A stretch of 64,000 nt of DNA from Gammaproteobacteria bacterium (GTDB lineage: Bacteria > Pseudomonadota > Gammaproteobacteria > GRL18): the NCBI GenBank assembly GCA_015488755.1, contig WFNB01000104.1, positions 124,001 through 188,000 of the forward strand. Reading direction: 5' to 3'. Positions within the stretch are counted from its first letter, which is position 1; each line of letters opens with the position of its first letter. A program made the position numbers and the translations under genes. Positions 12,410 through 53,221 of this stretch are shown here, piece after piece. A model generated the notes under the pieces. It had not been told where the DNA came from and did no database searches. It was given only the letters and a program-made list of their open reading frames with translations.

Positions 12410-12562
12410 TTAACATCCCATCTTCGCTAGTGTTCTTCTTTCAGATAGTTTTCTTGCTAGGAAATTATTATACTGCTGGATAATTGCATCAGGTAAATTT
12501 CTTGCTACCGCTCTTAACAGCTTCTCTTCATAACGAGATATTTCGATATCTAACTGTTGCAT
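12410..12562 (-). CDS. Microprotein family member 1 (50 aa), unknown function
   Basis: Manual translation MQQLDIEISRYEEKLLRAVARNLPDAIIQQYNNFLARKLSERRTLAKMGC; homologous to ORFs at 22030-22182 and 42758-42916; preceded by shared upstream module. Confidence 0.82.
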   Translation of the reverse strand: MQQLDIEISRYEEKLLRAVARNLPDAIIQQYNNFLARKLSERRTLAKMGC

Positions 12563-12603
12563 GATAATGTCCTCTGATTGCGTTGCTGTGCTTGTTTGTT
12601 CTC

Positions 12604-12678
12604 TTGCCTATTATAATAGCGAAAGACCGTACTATAAATCTGTGAAAAATTACCCATATTTTGAGTATTTATTACCCA
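12604..12678 (-). promoter_or_regulatory. Shared promoter/operator module of microprotein copy 1
   Basis: Reverse strand GGGTAATAAATAC...GGGTAATTTTTCACAGATT...GGTCTTTCGCTATTATAAT, matching modules upstream of the other two copies. Confidence 0.75.
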
Positions 12679-12870: not shown

Positions 12871-13008
12871 ATGAGCCAACCAATTGAACGAATAAAAGTA
12901 TTAAGTGCTGGTATCGCCAGTTTGATATTAATGCTAGGCATTGCTCGTTTTGCGTATTGGCGATCTTCTTTGAATGCCTTGATGAGCTATAGTACAATTT
13001 TGCTATGA
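12871..13008 (+). pseudogene. N-terminal remnant of a YbfB/YjiJ-type MFS transporter
   Basis: MSQPIERIKVLSAGIASLILMLGIARFAYW then loss of family-like sequence; ends in stop overlapping the next gene's start. Confidence 0.6.
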
Positions 13009-22029: not shown

Positions 22030-22182
22030 TCAATGCTTTGTCTCTGAAAGCATTTTCTTTTCAGAGCGTTTTTGCGCTAAGAAGTGATAATATTGTTTAA
22101 TCACTGCATCGGGTAAATTTCTTGATACTGCGTTTTGGATTTTCTCTTCATAACGTAATATTTCAATATCTAACTGTTGCAT
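22030..22182 (-). CDS. Microprotein family member 2 (50 aa), unknown function
   Basis: Manual translation MQQLDIEILRYEEKIQNAVSRNLPDAVIKQYYHFLAQKRSEKKMLSETKH. Confidence 0.83.
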   Translation of the reverse strand: MQQLDIEILRYEEKIQNAVSRNLPDAVIKQYYHFLAQKRSEKKMLSETKH

Positions 22183-22216: not shown

Positions 22217-22293
22217 GCTTGGTGATTATAATAGCGAAACAGGCCATTGAATTCCGTGAAAAATTACCTTTTTATTTAGGAAATAATACCCCA
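22217..22293 (-). promoter_or_regulatory. Shared promoter/operator module of microprotein copy 2
   Basis: Reverse strand GGGGTATTATTTC...AGGTAATTTTTCACGGAATT...CCTGTTTCGCTATTATAAT. Confidence 0.75.
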
Positions 22294-22315: not shown

Positions 22316-23125
22316 CTATGTTATTCCAAGCGTGTCTGCTTTTAATCTAAATTGATAAAAATCTTGGCTCATATTTTCAACTTTAGTAAAAGTAGTATGA
22401 ATTTTTTGTTTGTCTTTAAAAATAACAACCTCACTATCACACCAATAGCTTCGACTAAAAGGAATAATAAGAGTATTAATTTCTGCCGATAATTTTACCA
22501 TGATCGCGCCTAAAACTAATTTACCTTTGCATGGTTCATTAAGCACATTATTAATACCTGTCATGGTCACAGGATGTGCATTCAAACCAAGATGTTTTAT
22601 GGAAAATTGTACGTATTTATCATTCGGCTGCCTATTAATTTTCATTACCTGCCCAATCGTTAGTTTACTCGGTTGATCGGTGTAATCTTCAATTAAAACC
22701 AGAGAACCAATATGATAATGTTCCGTATATCCACTTTCCATTGTTTTAACACAGAGTTGACCCGCCTGCTCCTTGCCACACATAAACCATGCACTCTGCT
22801 CAGATGTACTTTTATCCTTACTTAAACCCGATGAATGTTGCGCGATTGTGTCACGTAAATATCTGTATTCAGAATTGATTGCATTTGGATAATACACATC
22901 TTTTAATTTGTCATAAATTTCTGATATACCGCTATAGATACGCAAATTATCATGTGGTACATAACTTGGGATGATGTAATCAGAGGTATCAATAAATGCA
23001 AATTTCATTAAACCATCAATAAGAGGCAAACGATATTCGGGTAATATCTTTTTTAATAACTTGGGTACTAAAAATTCATTTTTTTGGGCATTTGCATAAT
23101 ATAAACTGCGGTGATCTAATTTCAA
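22316..23125 (-). CDS. Hypothetical protein, possibly PilZ-like C-terminal region
   Basis: 269 aa; C-terminal GSLVLIEDYTDQPSKLTIGQVMKINRQPNDKYVQFSIKHLGLNAHPVTM resembles PilZ-like segments. Confidence 0.5.
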   Translation of the reverse strand: MKLDHRSLYYANAQKNEFLVPKLLKKILPEYRLPLIDGLMKFAFIDTSDYIIPSYVPHDNLRIYSGISEIYDKLKDVYYPNAINSEYRYLRDTIAQHSSGLSKDKSTSEQSAWFMCGKEQAGQLCVKTMESGYTEHYHIGSLVLIEDYTDQPSKLTIGQVMKINRQPNDKYVQFSIKHLGLNAHPVTMTGINNVLNEPCKGKLVLGAIMVKLSAEINTLIIPFSRSYWCDSEVVIFKDKQKIHTTFTKVENMSQDFYQFRLKADTLGIT

Positions 23126-24454: not shown

Positions 24455-25144
24455 CTACTTTTGTGCTAAAAAGGGTTGTGAGGCCTCAGATATTTCTGCT
24501 CCTAATTGTTGTAATACCTGATTCATGGCAATTACCAAGGCTTCATAGCTGGTACCATTAACGCTTTGTTTAATTAGTGACACTCGTGTCAATAAGGGCT
24601 TATCATCACGGCCAAAGACACTCCAGCGAGATTCTAGAAAAACCTCTTTACCCAATTGACCATCAAAACGACCAATATCAATAGCAACTCGCAAATCAAG
24701 TGGGTATTGACGATCGCTTCTGGGTATCCAATACACTCGATTGGAATTAAAATTATTGGATAAATTAATAACCAGCAAACGGCTGATACTATCATTAATC
24801 GGCTCTATCCAACGATTAAATTCCGATAGTGATAATTGATGCTGTGAATTACGGGTCACAATTTGTGGCCGATTAATATACTCAGGCAAATGTATGGGGC
24901 CAACACCAATAATATGCCCCTTTTCAACGCCGGTTAAAGAAGCATTACTGGTTTCTTCAAGTTGATAAAAAGCTGTTTTTTGTGACGTGCCACAGCCTGC
25001 AATCAGCAAGATATTTAATAATGCCACTCCCAAAACAGCCCATTTAGCGTATTGTGTTAAATTCATTATTTTATTTTCTCTGTTTGCTATCAAGCGTATA
25101 TTAGTACTTCTTACCCTGAATAATTGCTTCTGGATGTCGCTCAA
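24455..25144 (-). CDS. ABC-type transport auxiliary lipoprotein (PqiC/YmbA-like); probable start MNLTQYAKWAVLG... about 25066
   Basis: Lipobox-like LLIAGCGTSQ; IGVGPIHLPEYINRPQIVTRNSQHQLSLSEFNRWIEP. Confidence 0.88.
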   Translation of the reverse strand: MSDIQKQLFRVRSTNIRLIANRENKIMNLTQYAKWAVLGVALLNILLIAGCGTSQKTAFYQLEETSNASLTGVEKGHIIGVGPIHLPEYINRPQIVTRNSQHQLSLSEFNRWIEPINDSISRLLVINLSNNFNSNRVYWIPRSDRQYPLDLRVAIDIGRFDGQLGKEVFLESRWSVFGRDDKPLLTRVSLIKQSVNGTSYEALVIAMNQVLQQLGAEISEASQPFLAQK

Positions 25145-26123
25145 GGTATTCCGTAAACACCCGCATAGATTTAGCGGCTCTTGAGAGTTCCTTCAAGCTT
25201 TGCTCTAACTCATTTCTAACCGTGCTTTTTTTATCAACTATAGCATTCATATTATTAATCACTGTTTCACTATGATCAAATGCCTGAGTGGCTGAACTGG
25301 TAAGAGTGGTTAATTTTTTATTTACATTGCTTGATAAATTCGTTAATTCAGTTAAGGTCTGAGTCAATTGAGCCTCTGTATTTTTTAATAGTGTCTGAAC
25401 CTCACTCAACCTATCTTGTGTTGATTGTGATAAAGGCAATACCTGCTCATTAAGATTATTAATCAATTGCCGACTGCCTGCAATGGTGGCATTAATATTA
25501 TCTAACACTTCTCGTCCTTCTTTGTTGGCAAAGAGTTTATTAATTTTTTTAACGGTTACAATTAAGGTTTCGGTTAATTCTTTCAGGGGAATGGTTTTAA
25601 GCAAGTTTTGTAATTTCCCCAAATCAGATTCTACCGTTGGGATCTCTAAATAACGCTTATCAATACCGGTTAAATGAATAGGGGAATTAGGGGTGATCTC
25701 AAACTCAACCATTTGCCTACCGGAGACCAAGCTTTCAATGGTCAAGCGAGCATGCAAACCGGATTTAATCATGGCCACCATAAACCCTACGGCTTGCTCT
25801 TGGGTCAGCGTGGTATTTTCAGCACCCTGATTCATCAACTCCATGACTTCTTGCTTTAGATCAATATAAACGGGTACCAGACTTTGGTGGGTTTTATTAT
25901 TATGATAAATATTAATTTCAACAACTGAGCCAATATTAACGCCCCGAAATAATACCGGAGATCCCACATGCAGACCTTTTACTGAACCAGGAAAAACAGC
26001 CATTAGACGCATATCATTTTTAAAGAAGCGTCCAGAGCCTAAGACTAACAGACTAATGACTAATAAAAATATAGCACCAATAACAAAACCACCCACAACA
26101 GTAGGACTTGCTTTTACACTCAT
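25101..26123 (-). CDS. MlaD/MCE family protein
   Basis: VVGGFVIGAIFLLVISLLVLG...FPGSVKGLHVGSPVLFRGVNIGSV. Confidence 0.93.
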   Translation of the reverse strand: MSVKASPTVVGGFVIGAIFLLVISLLVLGSGRFFKNDMRLMAVFPGSVKGLHVGSPVLFRGVNIGSVVEINIYHNNKTHQSLVPVYIDLKQEVMELMNQGAENTTLTQEQAVGFMVAMIKSGLHARLTIESLVSGRQMVEFEITPNSPIHLTGIDKRYLEIPTVESDLGKLQNLLKTIPLKELTETLIVTVKKINKLFANKEGREVLDNINATIAGSRQLINNLNEQVLPLSQSTQDRLSEVQTLLKNTEAQLTQTLTELTNLSSNVNKKLTTLTSSATQAFDHSETVINNMNAIVDKKSTVRNELEQSLKELSRAAKSMRVFTEYLERHPEAIIQGKKY

Positions 26124-26932
26124 GGCTTGTATCCCTTTTTCTCTTCTCGATCGCGTCTCAAAAATGCCTGTACGTATGGATTAGAGTCATCTTTGAGCAT
26201 GGCCTTGGGATGACCTCTGGCAATAATCGTTTGCTGCTCATGATCTAAAAAAATCGCATCATTAGCAATGCTAAAAATACTGTCCAGTTCATGAGTCACA
26301 ACCACCATAGTGATCCCCATACTATCACGTAACTCAAGTAATAATTCATCTAATAGCTTTGAACTGATGGGATCTAAGCCTGCTGATGGTTCATCAAAAA
26401 ATAAAATGGGGGGATCCATTGCCATCGCTCTGGCAATGGCGACCCGTTTTTGCATGCCACCACTAATTTCTGAGGGGTAGTAATGTTCAAAGCCTTTTAA
26501 ACCAACCAATGCCAATTTATAGGTGGCAATTTTACGAATTCTTGAAGCGCTGTATTGTGTCATTTGCGCCAACCGCATAGAAACATTTTCAAGCAACGTC
26601 ATCGAGCTGAACAAAGCACCATTTTGAAACATAACACCGTACTGTGTCATCATCCGTTGTTGTTCTGCTTTAGTCGCCTGCCAATAGCCGAGGCGACCAC
26701 TTTGACAACTATAATAGACATCACCAGCAACCGGTCGATCCAAGCCGGTCATCGCTCTCATTAAGGTACTCTTACCACTGCCACTATTACCCATAATAAT
26801 AAAAATATCATTACGTTTGACTGTGAAATTCAAATCCTGTTGAATGACTTGTTCATCATACGCCATGGTCAAATTTTCAACAATAATGGCTTCTTCGCTT
26901 AGGCATTGTTCTGTTAAAGATTCACCCGTCAT
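26120..26932 (-). CDS. ABC transporter ATP-binding protein (MlaF-like)
   Basis: Walker A GNSGSGKSTLMRAM; signature SGGMQKRVAIARA; LFFDEPSAGLDP. Confidence 0.94.
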   Translation of the reverse strand: MTGESLTEQCLSEEAIIVENLTMAYDEQVIQQDLNFTVKRNDIFIIMGNSGSGKSTLMRAMTGLDRPVAGDVYYSCQSGRLGYWQATKAEQQRMMTQYGVMFQNGALFSSMTLLENVSMRLAQMTQYSASRIRKIATYKLALVGLKGFEHYYPSEISGGMQKRVAIARAMAMDPPILFFDEPSAGLDPISSKLLDELLLELRDSMGITMVVVTHELDSIFSIANDAIFLDHEQQTIIARGHPKAMLKDDSNPYVQAFLRRDREEKKGYKP

Positions 26933-26934
26933 TT

Positions 26935-28065
26935 TTATATACCTAAAGCACCATAGATGACTGTTAAAATAGCGGCACTAACAAAAATAATGACGGTTGA
27001 TGTCACTACAGCTGAGGTTGTTGAAGAACCAACGGCTTCGGCTGTTTTACCGCAACTCATGCCCTTTTGACAGCCCACAACCGCAACAATGCCACCAAAT
27101 ACCACAGACATCAATATGCCGGCACCAACATCATTAAGAGTAACGGATTTAATCACCACACTGAGATATTGTTCTAGGGTAATATTAAGCATACCATAGG
27201 CCACCAATGCACCACCAAAAACCCCCATGAAATTGGCATAAATCGCCAATAAGGGCATCATCAGCATCATACCAATCATACGCGGCAACACCAGAAATTC
27301 CATAGGCGAGATCCCCATACTTCTTAGGGCATCAATTTCTTCATTGACTTTCATGGTACCTAATTGAGCTGCAAACGCAGCACCCGAACGCCCAGCCATA
27401 ATGATTGCCGTAATAATAGCGGCAATTTCACGAGTCATGGCGACCCCCACCATATCGCCAATAAAAATTTCAGCACCAAATTTTTCTAATTGCATAGCAC
27501 CAATATAACCCAATATCGCACCGACTAAAAAGTTCAGCAAACTGACAATAGGCATTGCCTCAGCCCCCGTTTGCTGTATCACAAGCCAAGTATCCGATGA
27601 GCGATAGACCGACTGACCTTTAAGCATACGAAAAAAAGCCGCCGCAGCATTACTAATAAAAGCAATCACATCACCGACATCTTTAATTGCGGTGATTACA
27701 TTGCTACCAACGTTATGTAAAAATGAGGTGTTTTTGACAATATGATCATCCACATTGCGTTTAGGCACTTTTGATGATAAGGCAATTAAGCGGATCATTT
27801 CATCTGGTAATTGACTGCTATCCAAGGATACCTGAAATTGCACGCACAGCTTTTTAAGAGCTAAGATTGAGGTTAATAAAGCAGAATTCCATTGGGTAAC
27901 CTGATCCATCTCAATAGTGACTTGCTTGATATCGGAATTTTGCTTGAATTGTCGCTCTAATTCGTCATCAAAATCATCGGGATATTCACTGTCGAGGATC
28001 CAGTCACCACGTAGTTGAATAGCTAATGTTGAATGAGTATAGTTTATTTGATAATCAGGGCTCAT
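26935..28065 (-). CDS. MlaE-family ABC permease with N-terminal STAS-like domain
   Basis: N-terminal STAS-like ~100 aa; VGAILGYIGAMQLEKFGAEIFIGDMVGVAMTREIAAIITAIIMAGRSGAAFAAQLGTMKVNEEIDALRSMGISP. Confidence 0.93.
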   Translation of the reverse strand: MSPDYQINYTHSTLAIQLRGDWILDSEYPDDFDDELERQFKQNSDIKQVTIEMDQVTQWNSALLTSILALKKLCVQFQVSLDSSQLPDEMIRLIALSSKVPKRNVDDHIVKNTSFLHNVGSNVITAIKDVGDVIAFISNAAAAFFRMLKGQSVYRSSDTWLVIQQTGAEAMPIVSLLNFLVGAILGYIGAMQLEKFGAEIFIGDMVGVAMTREIAAIITAIIMAGRSGAAFAAQLGTMKVNEEIDALRSMGISPMEFLVLPRMIGMMLMMPLLAIYANFMGVFGGALVAYGMLNITLEQYLSVVIKSVTLNDVGAGILMSVVFGGIVAVVGCQKGMSCGKTAEAVGSSTTSAVVTSTVIIFVSAAILTVIYGALGI

Positions 28066-42651: not shown

Positions 42652-42722
42652 AGGGTATTAAATTGCAAAATAAGCGGTAATTTTTCACAGAATCTAGGCA
42701 CCTGTTTCGCTATTATAATAAC
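42652..42722 (+). promoter_or_regulatory. Shared promoter/operator module of microprotein copy 3
   Basis: AGGGTATTAAATTGCAAAATAAGCGGTAATTTTTCACAGAATCTAGGCACCTGTTTCGCTATTATAAT. Confidence 0.75.
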
Positions 42723-42757: not shown

Positions 42758-42916
42758 ATGCAACAACTAGACATTGAAATTTTACGTTATGAAGAAAAAT
42801 TATTACACGCTGTATCCAGAAATTTACCTGAAGCAGTCATTCAGCAATATAATCATTTTTTAGAAATGAAACAAACTGAAAAAAGAGCACAATCAAAGCA
42901 AGTACGTTACCACTAA
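42758..42916 (+). CDS. Microprotein family member 3 (52 aa), unknown function
   Basis: Manual translation MQQLDIEILRYEEKLLHAVSRNLPEAVIQQYNHFLEMKQTEKRAQSKQVRYH; RBS-like GAGGAA upstream. Confidence 0.83.
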   Translation: MQQLDIEILRYEEKLLHAVSRNLPEAVIQQYNHFLEMKQTEKRAQSKQVRYH

Positions 42917-50683: not shown

Positions 50684-51022
50684 TCAGTTCAGGCTGGACT
50701 CTGTTAACATCAAGGGTAAAATATCATTTAAGCCACTGATATGAGCAATCGCATACATTTGCTTAGGCAGATCAAAAAATCGGATTTTTTTATTCTGCTT
50801 TTCTGCCTCTCGATACCATTCAATTAATAATGCCAAACCAGAACTATCAGAGCGCTCAATTTGTGACATATTAATTGCTATGGTTTCTGCTTCATCAGCA
50901 AACAAAGCCTGACGATTTTCTAGCCATAATTGCGGCACAGACGTAAAACTTAGCTGACCTTTGAGTAAGTAATGCCCCGAGGAGATTTTTTCAAGCTGTG
51001 GACTACTGATAGTTTCTGTCAT
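50684..51022 (-). CDS. mlaB: STAS-domain lipid asymmetry protein MlaB
   Basis: LWLENRQALFADEAETIAINMSQIERSDSSGLALLIEWYREA. Confidence 0.88.
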   Translation of the reverse strand: MTETISSPQLEKISSGHYLLKGQLSFTSVPQLWLENRQALFADEAETIAINMSQIERSDSSGLALLIEWYREAEKQNKKIRFFDLPKQMYAIAHISGLNDILPLMLTESSLN

Positions 51023-51088
51023 AGTATGGCGTATTTTCTTAAGGTCTCTTGAATAAAAAAAATGGATAACAAAATGAATAATAAAAAT

Positions 51089-51556
51089 TTATTTTTTATT
51101 ACTGGACTGACTAAATAAAAATTGACTGATCAGTTTTTCAAGTACAATAGAAGATTGAGTTAAGCGAATAACACTCCCCTCTTCCAAGTAATCAGGTGCT
51201 CCACCAGGTTCAATGCCGACATATTTTTCACCCAACAAACCTGCGGTGTAAATCCCCACTGACGAATCAATAGGCACTTCCTTAAAACGCGAATCAATAG
51301 TCATTTTCACAACGGCTTCATAAGTCACTGGATCAACCTCAATGCTACTGACTCGACCAATCGTAACACCTGCAATCGACACAGAAGAACGCGCTTTAAG
51401 ACCACTGGCATTATCAAAATTAGCAACAATAGTATAATGATCACCACCACCAAAACCACTCACATTACTAACATTAACGGCCAAAACTAATAAAGCCGCC
51501 ATGCCAAATGCCACAAAGATCCCAACTGAAATTTCCACTATTCTGGAGTTAAGCAT
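51089..51556 (-). CDS. mlaD: Outer membrane lipid asymmetry protein MlaD
   Basis: VEISVGIFVAFGMAALLVLAVNV...FDNASGLKARSSVSIAGVTIGRV. Confidence 0.94.
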   Translation of the reverse strand: MLNSRIVEISVGIFVAFGMAALLVLAVNVSNVSGFGGGDHYTIVANFDNASGLKARSSVSIAGVTIGRVSSIEVDPVTYEAVVKMTIDSRFKEVPIDSSVGIYTAGLLGEKYVGIEPGGAPDYLEEGSVIRLTQSSIVLEKLISQFLFSQSSNKK

Positions 51557-51586
51557 TTCTATTTACCATAAATTTTGTCATGTTCA

Positions 51587-52360
51587 TTACAACATGATTG
51601 CTGTTAATAAGAAGTCCAAGCCCAACACGGTCAAGGCAGAATAAACCACTGTACGAGTGGTCGAACGACTCACACCTTCAGAGGTCGGCAAACAAGTATA
51701 GCCTTCATAGATGGCAATCCATGTGACCACCACACCAAAGACTGCACTCTTAATAACGCCATTAACGATGTCTTTATGAAAATCTACATTTGACTGCATT
51801 TGTGACCAATAAGAGCCTGTATCAACACCGAGTAAGTCCACCCCAACCAGATAGCCACCAAAGATGCCTACCGAACTAAACATGGCTGCTAATAAGGGCA
51901 TGCTGATGATCCCAGCTAATAATCTTGGGGCTAAAATCCGCTCAACGGGATTAATCGCCATCATTTCTAAGCCTGACAACTGCTCGGTTGCTTTCATCAA
52001 ACCAATTTCAGCCGTCAAAGCAGACCCTGCCCGACCAGCAAAGAGTAATGCAGTTACCACCGGACCTAATTCACGCACCAATGAGAGGGCCACCATAACA
52101 CCCAGAGATTCTTCAGCACCAAAATCAACAAGCGTGTTATAGCCCTGCAAACCCAGCACCATACCAACAAAAAAACCTGACACAATAATAATCAGCATGG
52201 AACGAACACCAATTGAAAATAATTGTTGAATCACAAGACTTGGACGCCAAATAAGCGCATAGAAGCCCTTTACTGTCTGCAAAAACAATAAAAATTCAGC
52301 ACCTAAACGGGCTAAAAAATCAACGGTATTTCGACCAATTACGGCAAACCAATCAAACAT
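51587..52360 (-). CDS. mlaE: Lipid asymmetry ABC permease MlaE
   Basis: ALSLVRELGPVVTALLFAGRAGSALTAEIGLMKATEQLSGLEMMAINPVERILAPR. Confidence 0.95.
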   Translation of the reverse strand: MFDWFAVIGRNTVDFLARLGAEFLLFLQTVKGFYALIWRPSLVIQQLFSIGVRSMLIIIVSGFFVGMVLGLQGYNTLVDFGAEESLGVMVALSLVRELGPVVTALLFAGRAGSALTAEIGLMKATEQLSGLEMMAINPVERILAPRLLAGIISMPLLAAMFSSVGIFGGYLVGVDLLGVDTGSYWSQMQSNVDFHKDIVNGVIKSAVFGVVVTWIAIYEGYTCLPTSEGVSRSTTRTVVYSALTVLGLDFLLTAIML

Positions 52361-52399
52361 TTTTGCTCTATTACTCTAGTCTATTAATAGGAAAGTGAA

Positions 52400-53221
52400 T
52401 TATAACTCTAGGTGACACTCAGCCATGAGATCTTCTTTATAAGGACATGCCTGATAGTGAAAGCGCACAGGGCCATCGGCATCACCATGCACAAATTGGC
52501 TGATCCATGGTGACTCCGATTGATTCATCTGTTCAGGACTACCATGCCCCATTATTTTACCCTGTGAAATAATGTAAATTTTATCTGCAATGGCCAGTGT
52601 TTCTTGAATATCATGAGAAACAATCACACTGGTTAGCCCCAAGGAATCATTCATTGAGCGGATCAATTGTACCAGCACACCCATTGAAATAGGATCTTGT
52701 CCCGTAAAAGGCTCATCAAACATCACCATTTCAGGATCTAGGGCAATTGCCCTAGCAAAGGCAACTCGACGCGCCATACCACCGGAAAGTTGGCTTGGCC
52801 TTAAATCACGTGCCCCTCGTAGCCCAACAGCTTGCAATTTCATCAATACCAAGTCACGGATCATCACTTCTGGTAAGTCCGTGTGTTCCCGTAAGGGAAA
52901 AGCAATATTGTCAAAGACACTCATATCCGTTAGCAATGCCCCACTTTGAAATAACATGCCCATTTTTTTACGAGCCTCATAGAGCTTTTTGGTCTTCATG
53001 GTCGGTATTTCTTCACCATGAAACTGTATCGATCCTTTTTGTGGTTTAAGCTGACCACCTATCAATTTAAGTAAGGTTGTTTTACCCGTACCACTAGGCC
53101 CCATAATGGCGGTGATTTTCCCCTTTGGGATCGTAATATCAATACCATCAAATATTTTCGAGCGACCACGAGAAAAATGCAGATCTCGGATACGAACTAA
53201 ATTGTTATCATTGACAGACAT
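52400..53221 (-). CDS. mlaF: Lipid asymmetry ABC ATPase MlaF
   Basis: MGPSGTGKTTLLKLIGGQ; LSGGMARRVAFARAIALDPEMVMFDEPFTGQDP. Confidence 0.95.
   Translation of the reverse strand: MSVNDNNLVRIRDLHFSRGRSKIFDGIDITIPKGKITAIMGPSGTGKTTLLKLIGGQLKPQKGSIQFHGEEIPTMKTKKLYEARKKMGMLFQSGALLTDMSVFDNIAFPLREHTDLPEVMIRDLVLMKLQAVGLRGARDLRPSQLSGGMARRVAFARAIALDPEMVMFDEPFTGQDPISMGVLVQLIRSMNDSLGLTSVIVSHDIQETLAIADKIYIISQGKIMGHGSPEQMNQSESPWISQFVHGDADGPVRFHYQACPYKEDLMAECHLEL

Follow-up and report, generated by a model that had tools for sequence, protein, structure and literature searches.

A short reading frame with conserved DNA in front of it may be a gene or a coincidence of repeated sequence. Three similar frames of about 50 codons, each with the same upstream motifs, occur in the 64,000-nucleotide stretch of DNA that was analyzed here (the window). 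We asked whether these frames constitute a family of functional genes, what their promoters might respond to, and what their products might do.

A family of small protein-coding genes

The 50-aa minus-strand frame that had been predicted as copy 1 was present exactly as written (Table 1). A tblastn search of the window with this peptide detected relatives at 42758-42898 on the plus strand (copy 3; 33/47 residues identical; E, 1e-18) and at 22042-22182 on the minus strand (copy 2; 31/47 identical; E, 1e-17). The similarity to frames at 22.1 and 42.8 kb had been described for the first 36 residues; the relatives were found, and the similarity runs further, to about residue 47, with 66 to 70% identity to copy 1 over 47 residues. 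The next match in the window was at chance level, and a search of the whole genome yielded nothing above chance besides the three copies. A purine-rich Shine-Dalgarno sequence precedes each copy, and the ATG is conserved. Each of the three copies appears to be a gene in its own right, with convergent neighbors at copy 1 (smpB) and copy 2 (a GGDEF/EAL gene); these names, like those of the msh genes below, are from sequence only. A small FHA-domain ORF is located downstream of copy 3. The 50-aa protein was previously unannotated.

Homologs were also present outside the window. Of the 15 other genomes of the genus, 5 (G004, G005, G008, G009, and G012), representing as many species, each have a single intact ortholog. 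The recurrence of these orthologs and of the upstream module in five other species puts the three-copy pattern far beyond chance. Searches of the remaining genera of the order (24 genomes in all), of a class-wide sample of 369 genomes, and of viral, phage, and plasmid collections yielded no relative. When 84,980 species genomes were scanned by a pattern-based method, only the five same-genus relatives were recovered, all of them Gammaproteobacteria MAGs, and literature searches on the family found nothing. The microprotein family is restricted to one genus.

Selection on the reading frame was analyzed with 46 codons of eight sequences. Values of pS ranged from 0.46 to 0.92 and those of pN from 0.05 to 0.35. 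The dN/dS ratio of the paralogs was 0.09 to 0.14, the larger dS values being rough owing to saturation, and dS values above 1 between the copies showed that they are strongly diverged. Extra states by codon phase numbered 33, 33, and 68, and the third-phase value was reached in none of 20,000 permutations. The low dN/dS and the third-phase excess indicated that the frame is constrained as a protein, and purifying selection across the orthologs identified a functional protein-coding gene family. Sixteen residues (M1, Q3, D5, I6, R10, Y11, E12, A18, V19, L23, P24, I28, Q30, Y31, K38, and E41) were invariant.

Structure prediction with AF2 from an eight-row alignment gave helices at residues 3 to 20 and 25 to 49 with a mean pLDDT of 90.5. 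Foldseek detected no match below an E value of 0.9, and the VIA matches formed a plateau at Z scores of 6.4 to 8.2 that comprised designed hairpins, CsoR/FrmR, a Spo0E-type phosphatase, L29, and RNAP beta' helices. The structure used to test for a Spo0E/Sda fold, 2c0s, reached a Z score of 7.2 over 50 residues and was tied with the designed hairpins, CsoR/FrmR, L29, and the RNAP beta' helices. Mimicry of the RNAP beta' clamp helices was considered and set aside, as beta' hairpins were listed by Foldseek and VIA (0.5 A over 35 to 37 residues; Z, 7.3) but so equally were designed hairpins, CsoR, L29, and other structures. The best Pfam match scored 15.5 bits against a cutoff of 27, no Spo0E-type phosphatase or Sda-type signature was matched in Pfam at an E value of ≤10, and NCBIfam had no family match. 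Matches in PHROGs covered only short helical stretches, the best being 1.7e-4 over 17 residues. As modeled, the microprotein is a generic two-helix hairpin, and no function follows from its fold.

Table 1. Microprotein genes, their promoter elements, and neighboring genes in the window
Feature	Position	Strand	Basis or remark
Copy 1 microprotein ORF, 50 aa (MQQLDIEISRYEEKLLRAVARNLPDAIIQQYNNFLARKLSERRTLAKMGC)	12410..12562	-	ORF, tblastn, selection
Copy 1 Shine-Dalgarno-like AGAGGA	12570..12575	-	sequence
Copy 1 TATAAT (-10-like), preceded by CTTTCGCTAT	12610..12615	-	
Copy 1 proximal promoter box GGTAATTTTTCACAGA	12639..12654	-	
Copy 1 distal GGTAAT box, 22 bp upstream of proximal box	12671..12676	-	pattern search
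Copy 2 microprotein ORF, 50 aa, likely ancestral locus near CRP-like gene	22030..22182	-	tblastn
Copy 2 module: GGTATT box, N16, GGTAATTTTTCACGGA (22253-22268), N22, TATAAT (22225-22230)	22225..22290	-	
269-aa ORF between CRP-like gene and copy 2	22316..23125	-	no Pfam or NCBIfam match
CRP-like regulator, cNMP-binding domain and Crp HTH, 222 aa	23344..24012	-	profile matches; same strand as and upstream of copy 2
Copy 3 module: GGTATT box, N16, GGTAATTTTTCACAGA (42676-42691), N22, TATAAT (42714-42719)	42654..42719	+	
Copy 3 microprotein ORF, 52 aa	42758..42916	+	tblastn

A promoter module found before the microprotein genes

The upstream module claimed to be common to the three copies was found before each of them (at 12610-12676 for copy 1). 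Its consensus is GGTAWT-N16-GGTAWTTTTTCACRGA-N22/23-TATAAT, with a 23-nt spacing in copy 1 and a 22-nt spacing otherwise, and positions 12642-12676 of copy 1 fit the full pattern with 0 mismatches. Two direct GGTAWT boxes are exactly 22 bp apart in seven of eight promoters. The divergent G009 copy departs from this pattern: only the proximal box is kept, in the form GGTACTTTGTCACAGA, and TATTAT comes 19 nt after it. A -35 element common to the copies was not recognized. Comparison of the eight genes detected 91% identity over all pairs in the 15 bp TAATTTTTCACAGAA, 75% in the -10 block, 42 to 50% in DNA further upstream, and 63 to 83% in most of the coding region. The proximal box is thus better conserved than the coding sequence, and TCAC is invariant within it.

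Pattern searches of the 16 genomes of the genus detected exact modules only before the microprotein gene, and weaker matches elsewhere were at the level of a reversed control. A larger regulon was rejected, as both full-module and box-plus-TATAAT searches of the 16 genomes gave only background elsewhere; a one-mismatch box at C53 of this genome was also discarded as a site, since it falls within a coding region, at its 3' end, and looks accidental. As the module is kept between paralogs and species and exact matches precede only the microprotein gene, co-regulation of the copies can fairly be inferred. The view of the three copies as a functional, probably co-regulated paralog set was thus borne out, with a frame under selection and a retained module; two outcomes named in advance as refuting it, a lack of homologs beyond the window and a frame free of purifying selection, were not what the analysis showed. 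The module looks like an activator-dependent promoter that is private to the microprotein family, and we regard it as close to certain that the family and its private promoter are real.

A linked CRP-like regulator

Copy 2 is about 1.2 kb from a gene for a CRP-like regulator. The matches of this protein to PF00027 (7.7e-22), PF13545 (1e-11), and PF00325 (5.6e-8) placed it in the CRP/FNR family. It aligns with Escherichia coli CRP through the recognition helix, where SREMVTKIL corresponds to SRETVGRIL, but its score of 128.4 bits against the NCBIfam CRP model (NF008732) was below the equivalog cutoff of 266, and it was not classed as an ortholog of CRP proper. In CRP, recognition of the GTGA/TCAC half-site falls to R180 and E181. 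The class II palindrome TGTGA-N6-TCACA was not found in the module, which has the TCAC half only, with GGTAAT as the left arm. The box resembles that of a CRP class II promoter in being just upstream of the -35 position; it differs in that the spacing would put a CRP center near -44.5, or -41.5 with TATTAT as the -10 element. A further difference from E. coli CRP is that this regulator seemingly has a single target gene.

Among the 16 genomes, an ortholog of the regulator (74 to 76% identical) was present only in G000, G004, G005, G008, and G012. All five have the microprotein, a sixth genome has the microprotein alone, and the other 10 have neither gene. The probability of such an overlap by chance is 6/4368 = 0.0014 if the genomes are independent, which they are not. 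In four other species the microprotein gene is likewise close to the ortholog: it immediately follows the gene of a 223-aa CRP-like regulator in G004, G005, and G008, and a few genes separate the two in G012. In G009, which has the microprotein, the CRP homologs are all distant (31% identity). No module was seen upstream of the regulator in five species, and autoregulation of the CRP-like gene was therefore rejected. Because the regulator ortholog is located upstream of copy 2, this copy is likely the original, with copies 1 and 3 as its probable dispersed duplicates. The original prediction had overlooked that copy 2, and not copy 1, likely occupies the ancestral setting; this locus near a co-occurring CRP-like regulator, the conservation of the box above that of the protein, and the restriction to one genus are new. 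In trees, the three copies of this genome grouped on DNA (85/87 support) and not on protein, the sequences being too short to order the duplications.

The regulator-microprotein pair is at an MSHA-type pilus cluster in four species; in three of these it is flanked by mshC-like and mshA-like genes, and G004, G005, and G008 have it at one place in the msh gene cluster. The msh cluster of G013 has only about 140 bp at this place. Pilus genes elsewhere occur without the pair, as mshE was present in G007, G013, G014, and G015, none of which has it, and this genome has the pair with no mshE match at 1e-150. An MSHA pilus was therefore ruled out as a necessary partner, and this separability indicated that the pair is independent of the pilus. 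Some irregularities were seen in these clusters. In G013, an insertion of about 1.5 kb near codon 480 apparently interrupts mshE (L106, 9582-11050), and in G015 this gene contains one in-frame TAG (L108, 8609-10318), which may reflect a pseudogene or an assembly error. A decayed second microprotein copy with two in-frame stops and no promoter module is beside mshA in G005 (L109, 15390-15506); the intact copy adjoins the CRP-like gene 8.5 kb away, and sensor-kinase-like genes occupy the interval.

A candidate circuit and competing explanations

The features described above suggest a mechanism in which each copy would express a soluble hairpin protein of about 50 residues from its own short transcript. 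The promoter would be of the sigma70 type, with TATAAT and no conserved -35 element, and the CRP-like regulator with bound cyclic nucleotide would read the proximal box, with its TCAC, and from this site just upstream of the -35 position would recruit RNA polymerase, so that the microprotein would be its dedicated local target. The hairpin might act by protein-protein contact, most simply, and on weaker grounds, as a feedback modulator or adaptor of the same regulator. The unit of promoter and ORF would have been copied twice from the copy 2 site, giving a higher dosage or a split function. Small helical antagonists are known to be encoded beside regulators or to act on them, namely, SinI for SinR, Sda for KinA, and Spo0E for Spo0A~P. 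The microprotein resembles these proteins of about 40 to 85 residues in forming a helical hairpin or coiled pair and in being, in part, encoded beside a regulator gene, and Sda and a Spo0E-type phosphatase were present in its fold lists; it differs in having no Pfam match to those families, in fold matches that designed hairpins equal, and in that its target is a putative one.

That the microprotein is a target, and perhaps a modulator, of the neighboring CRP-like regulator is put forward tentatively, as a reading somewhat short of an even chance. Points against it are that G009 keeps the gene and a recognizable proximal box with no regulator ortholog, that there is one half-site only, and that genes intervene in G012 and in this genome (the 269-aa ORF). 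The microprotein could instead be real and selected but controlled from its promoter by another regulator, such as an OmpR- or NarL-type response regulator that binds as tandem dimers to the two GGTAWT boxes, which are separated by two helical turns; the CRP-like gene would then be a neighbor by history only. The exact spacing of the direct boxes, the lack of a CRP palindrome, and the situation in G009 all agree with such a regulator, but the invariant TCAC suits a CRP-type recognition helix, and the two genes occur together in five genomes and are both absent from 10; we consider this explanation doubtful, though a serious contender. We think it unlikely that the microprotein lacks any regulatory link and is an accessory of some other process, such as one of the envelope, pili, or ribosome, its distribution being shared with the regulator only because one segment was gained or lost. 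The position of the pair at the pilus cluster in four species would fit, and the pattern of presence and absence may reflect few events only, but the pair and the MSHA genes each occur without the other in the genomes named above.

The three scattered copies here and the decayed copy in G005 would be compatible with a cassette, mobile or selfish, or a gene of phage origin that spreads within genomes. However, no plasmid, phage, or viral contig was matched, the weak PHROG matches span short helical stretches only, and the copies, which are strongly diverged, share the promoter and ORF only and have no element ends; such an origin is very improbable. That the transcript units are short and independent and the promoter conserved could also signify that a small RNA is the selected product and the ORF incidental, but this is scarcely credible given the third-position excess, the low pN/pS, the Shine-Dalgarno sequence before a conserved ATG, and the lack of any Rfam match in the window.

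The preferred reading, control of the microprotein by the CRP-like regulator, can be extended to a one-regulator, one-target circuit in which a CRP-like cyclic-nucleotide sensor would have the hairpin-protein promoter as its sole target, the hairpin would feed back, and two dispersed duplicates would amplify the output. This full circuit is improbable as it stands; if true, the private pair would be a compact cyclic-nucleotide regulator with a single small-protein output. Small proteins are routinely omitted from annotations, and this one has a selected frame, a conserved box, and a co-occurring candidate regulator, which together make its function directly testable.

Minor observations were made elsewhere in the window. 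After ATGAGCCAACCAATTGAACG, the start of an ORF at 12872-13007 resembles the N terminus of a YbfB/YjiJ-type MFS transporter and ends after about 45 residues, and it is probably a truncated gene; an AAA-ATPase-like gene follows directly at 13005. Two separate lipid-transport (Mla/Pqi-type) ABC-like gene sets, as judged from their sequences, are located at 24455-28065 and 50684-53221.
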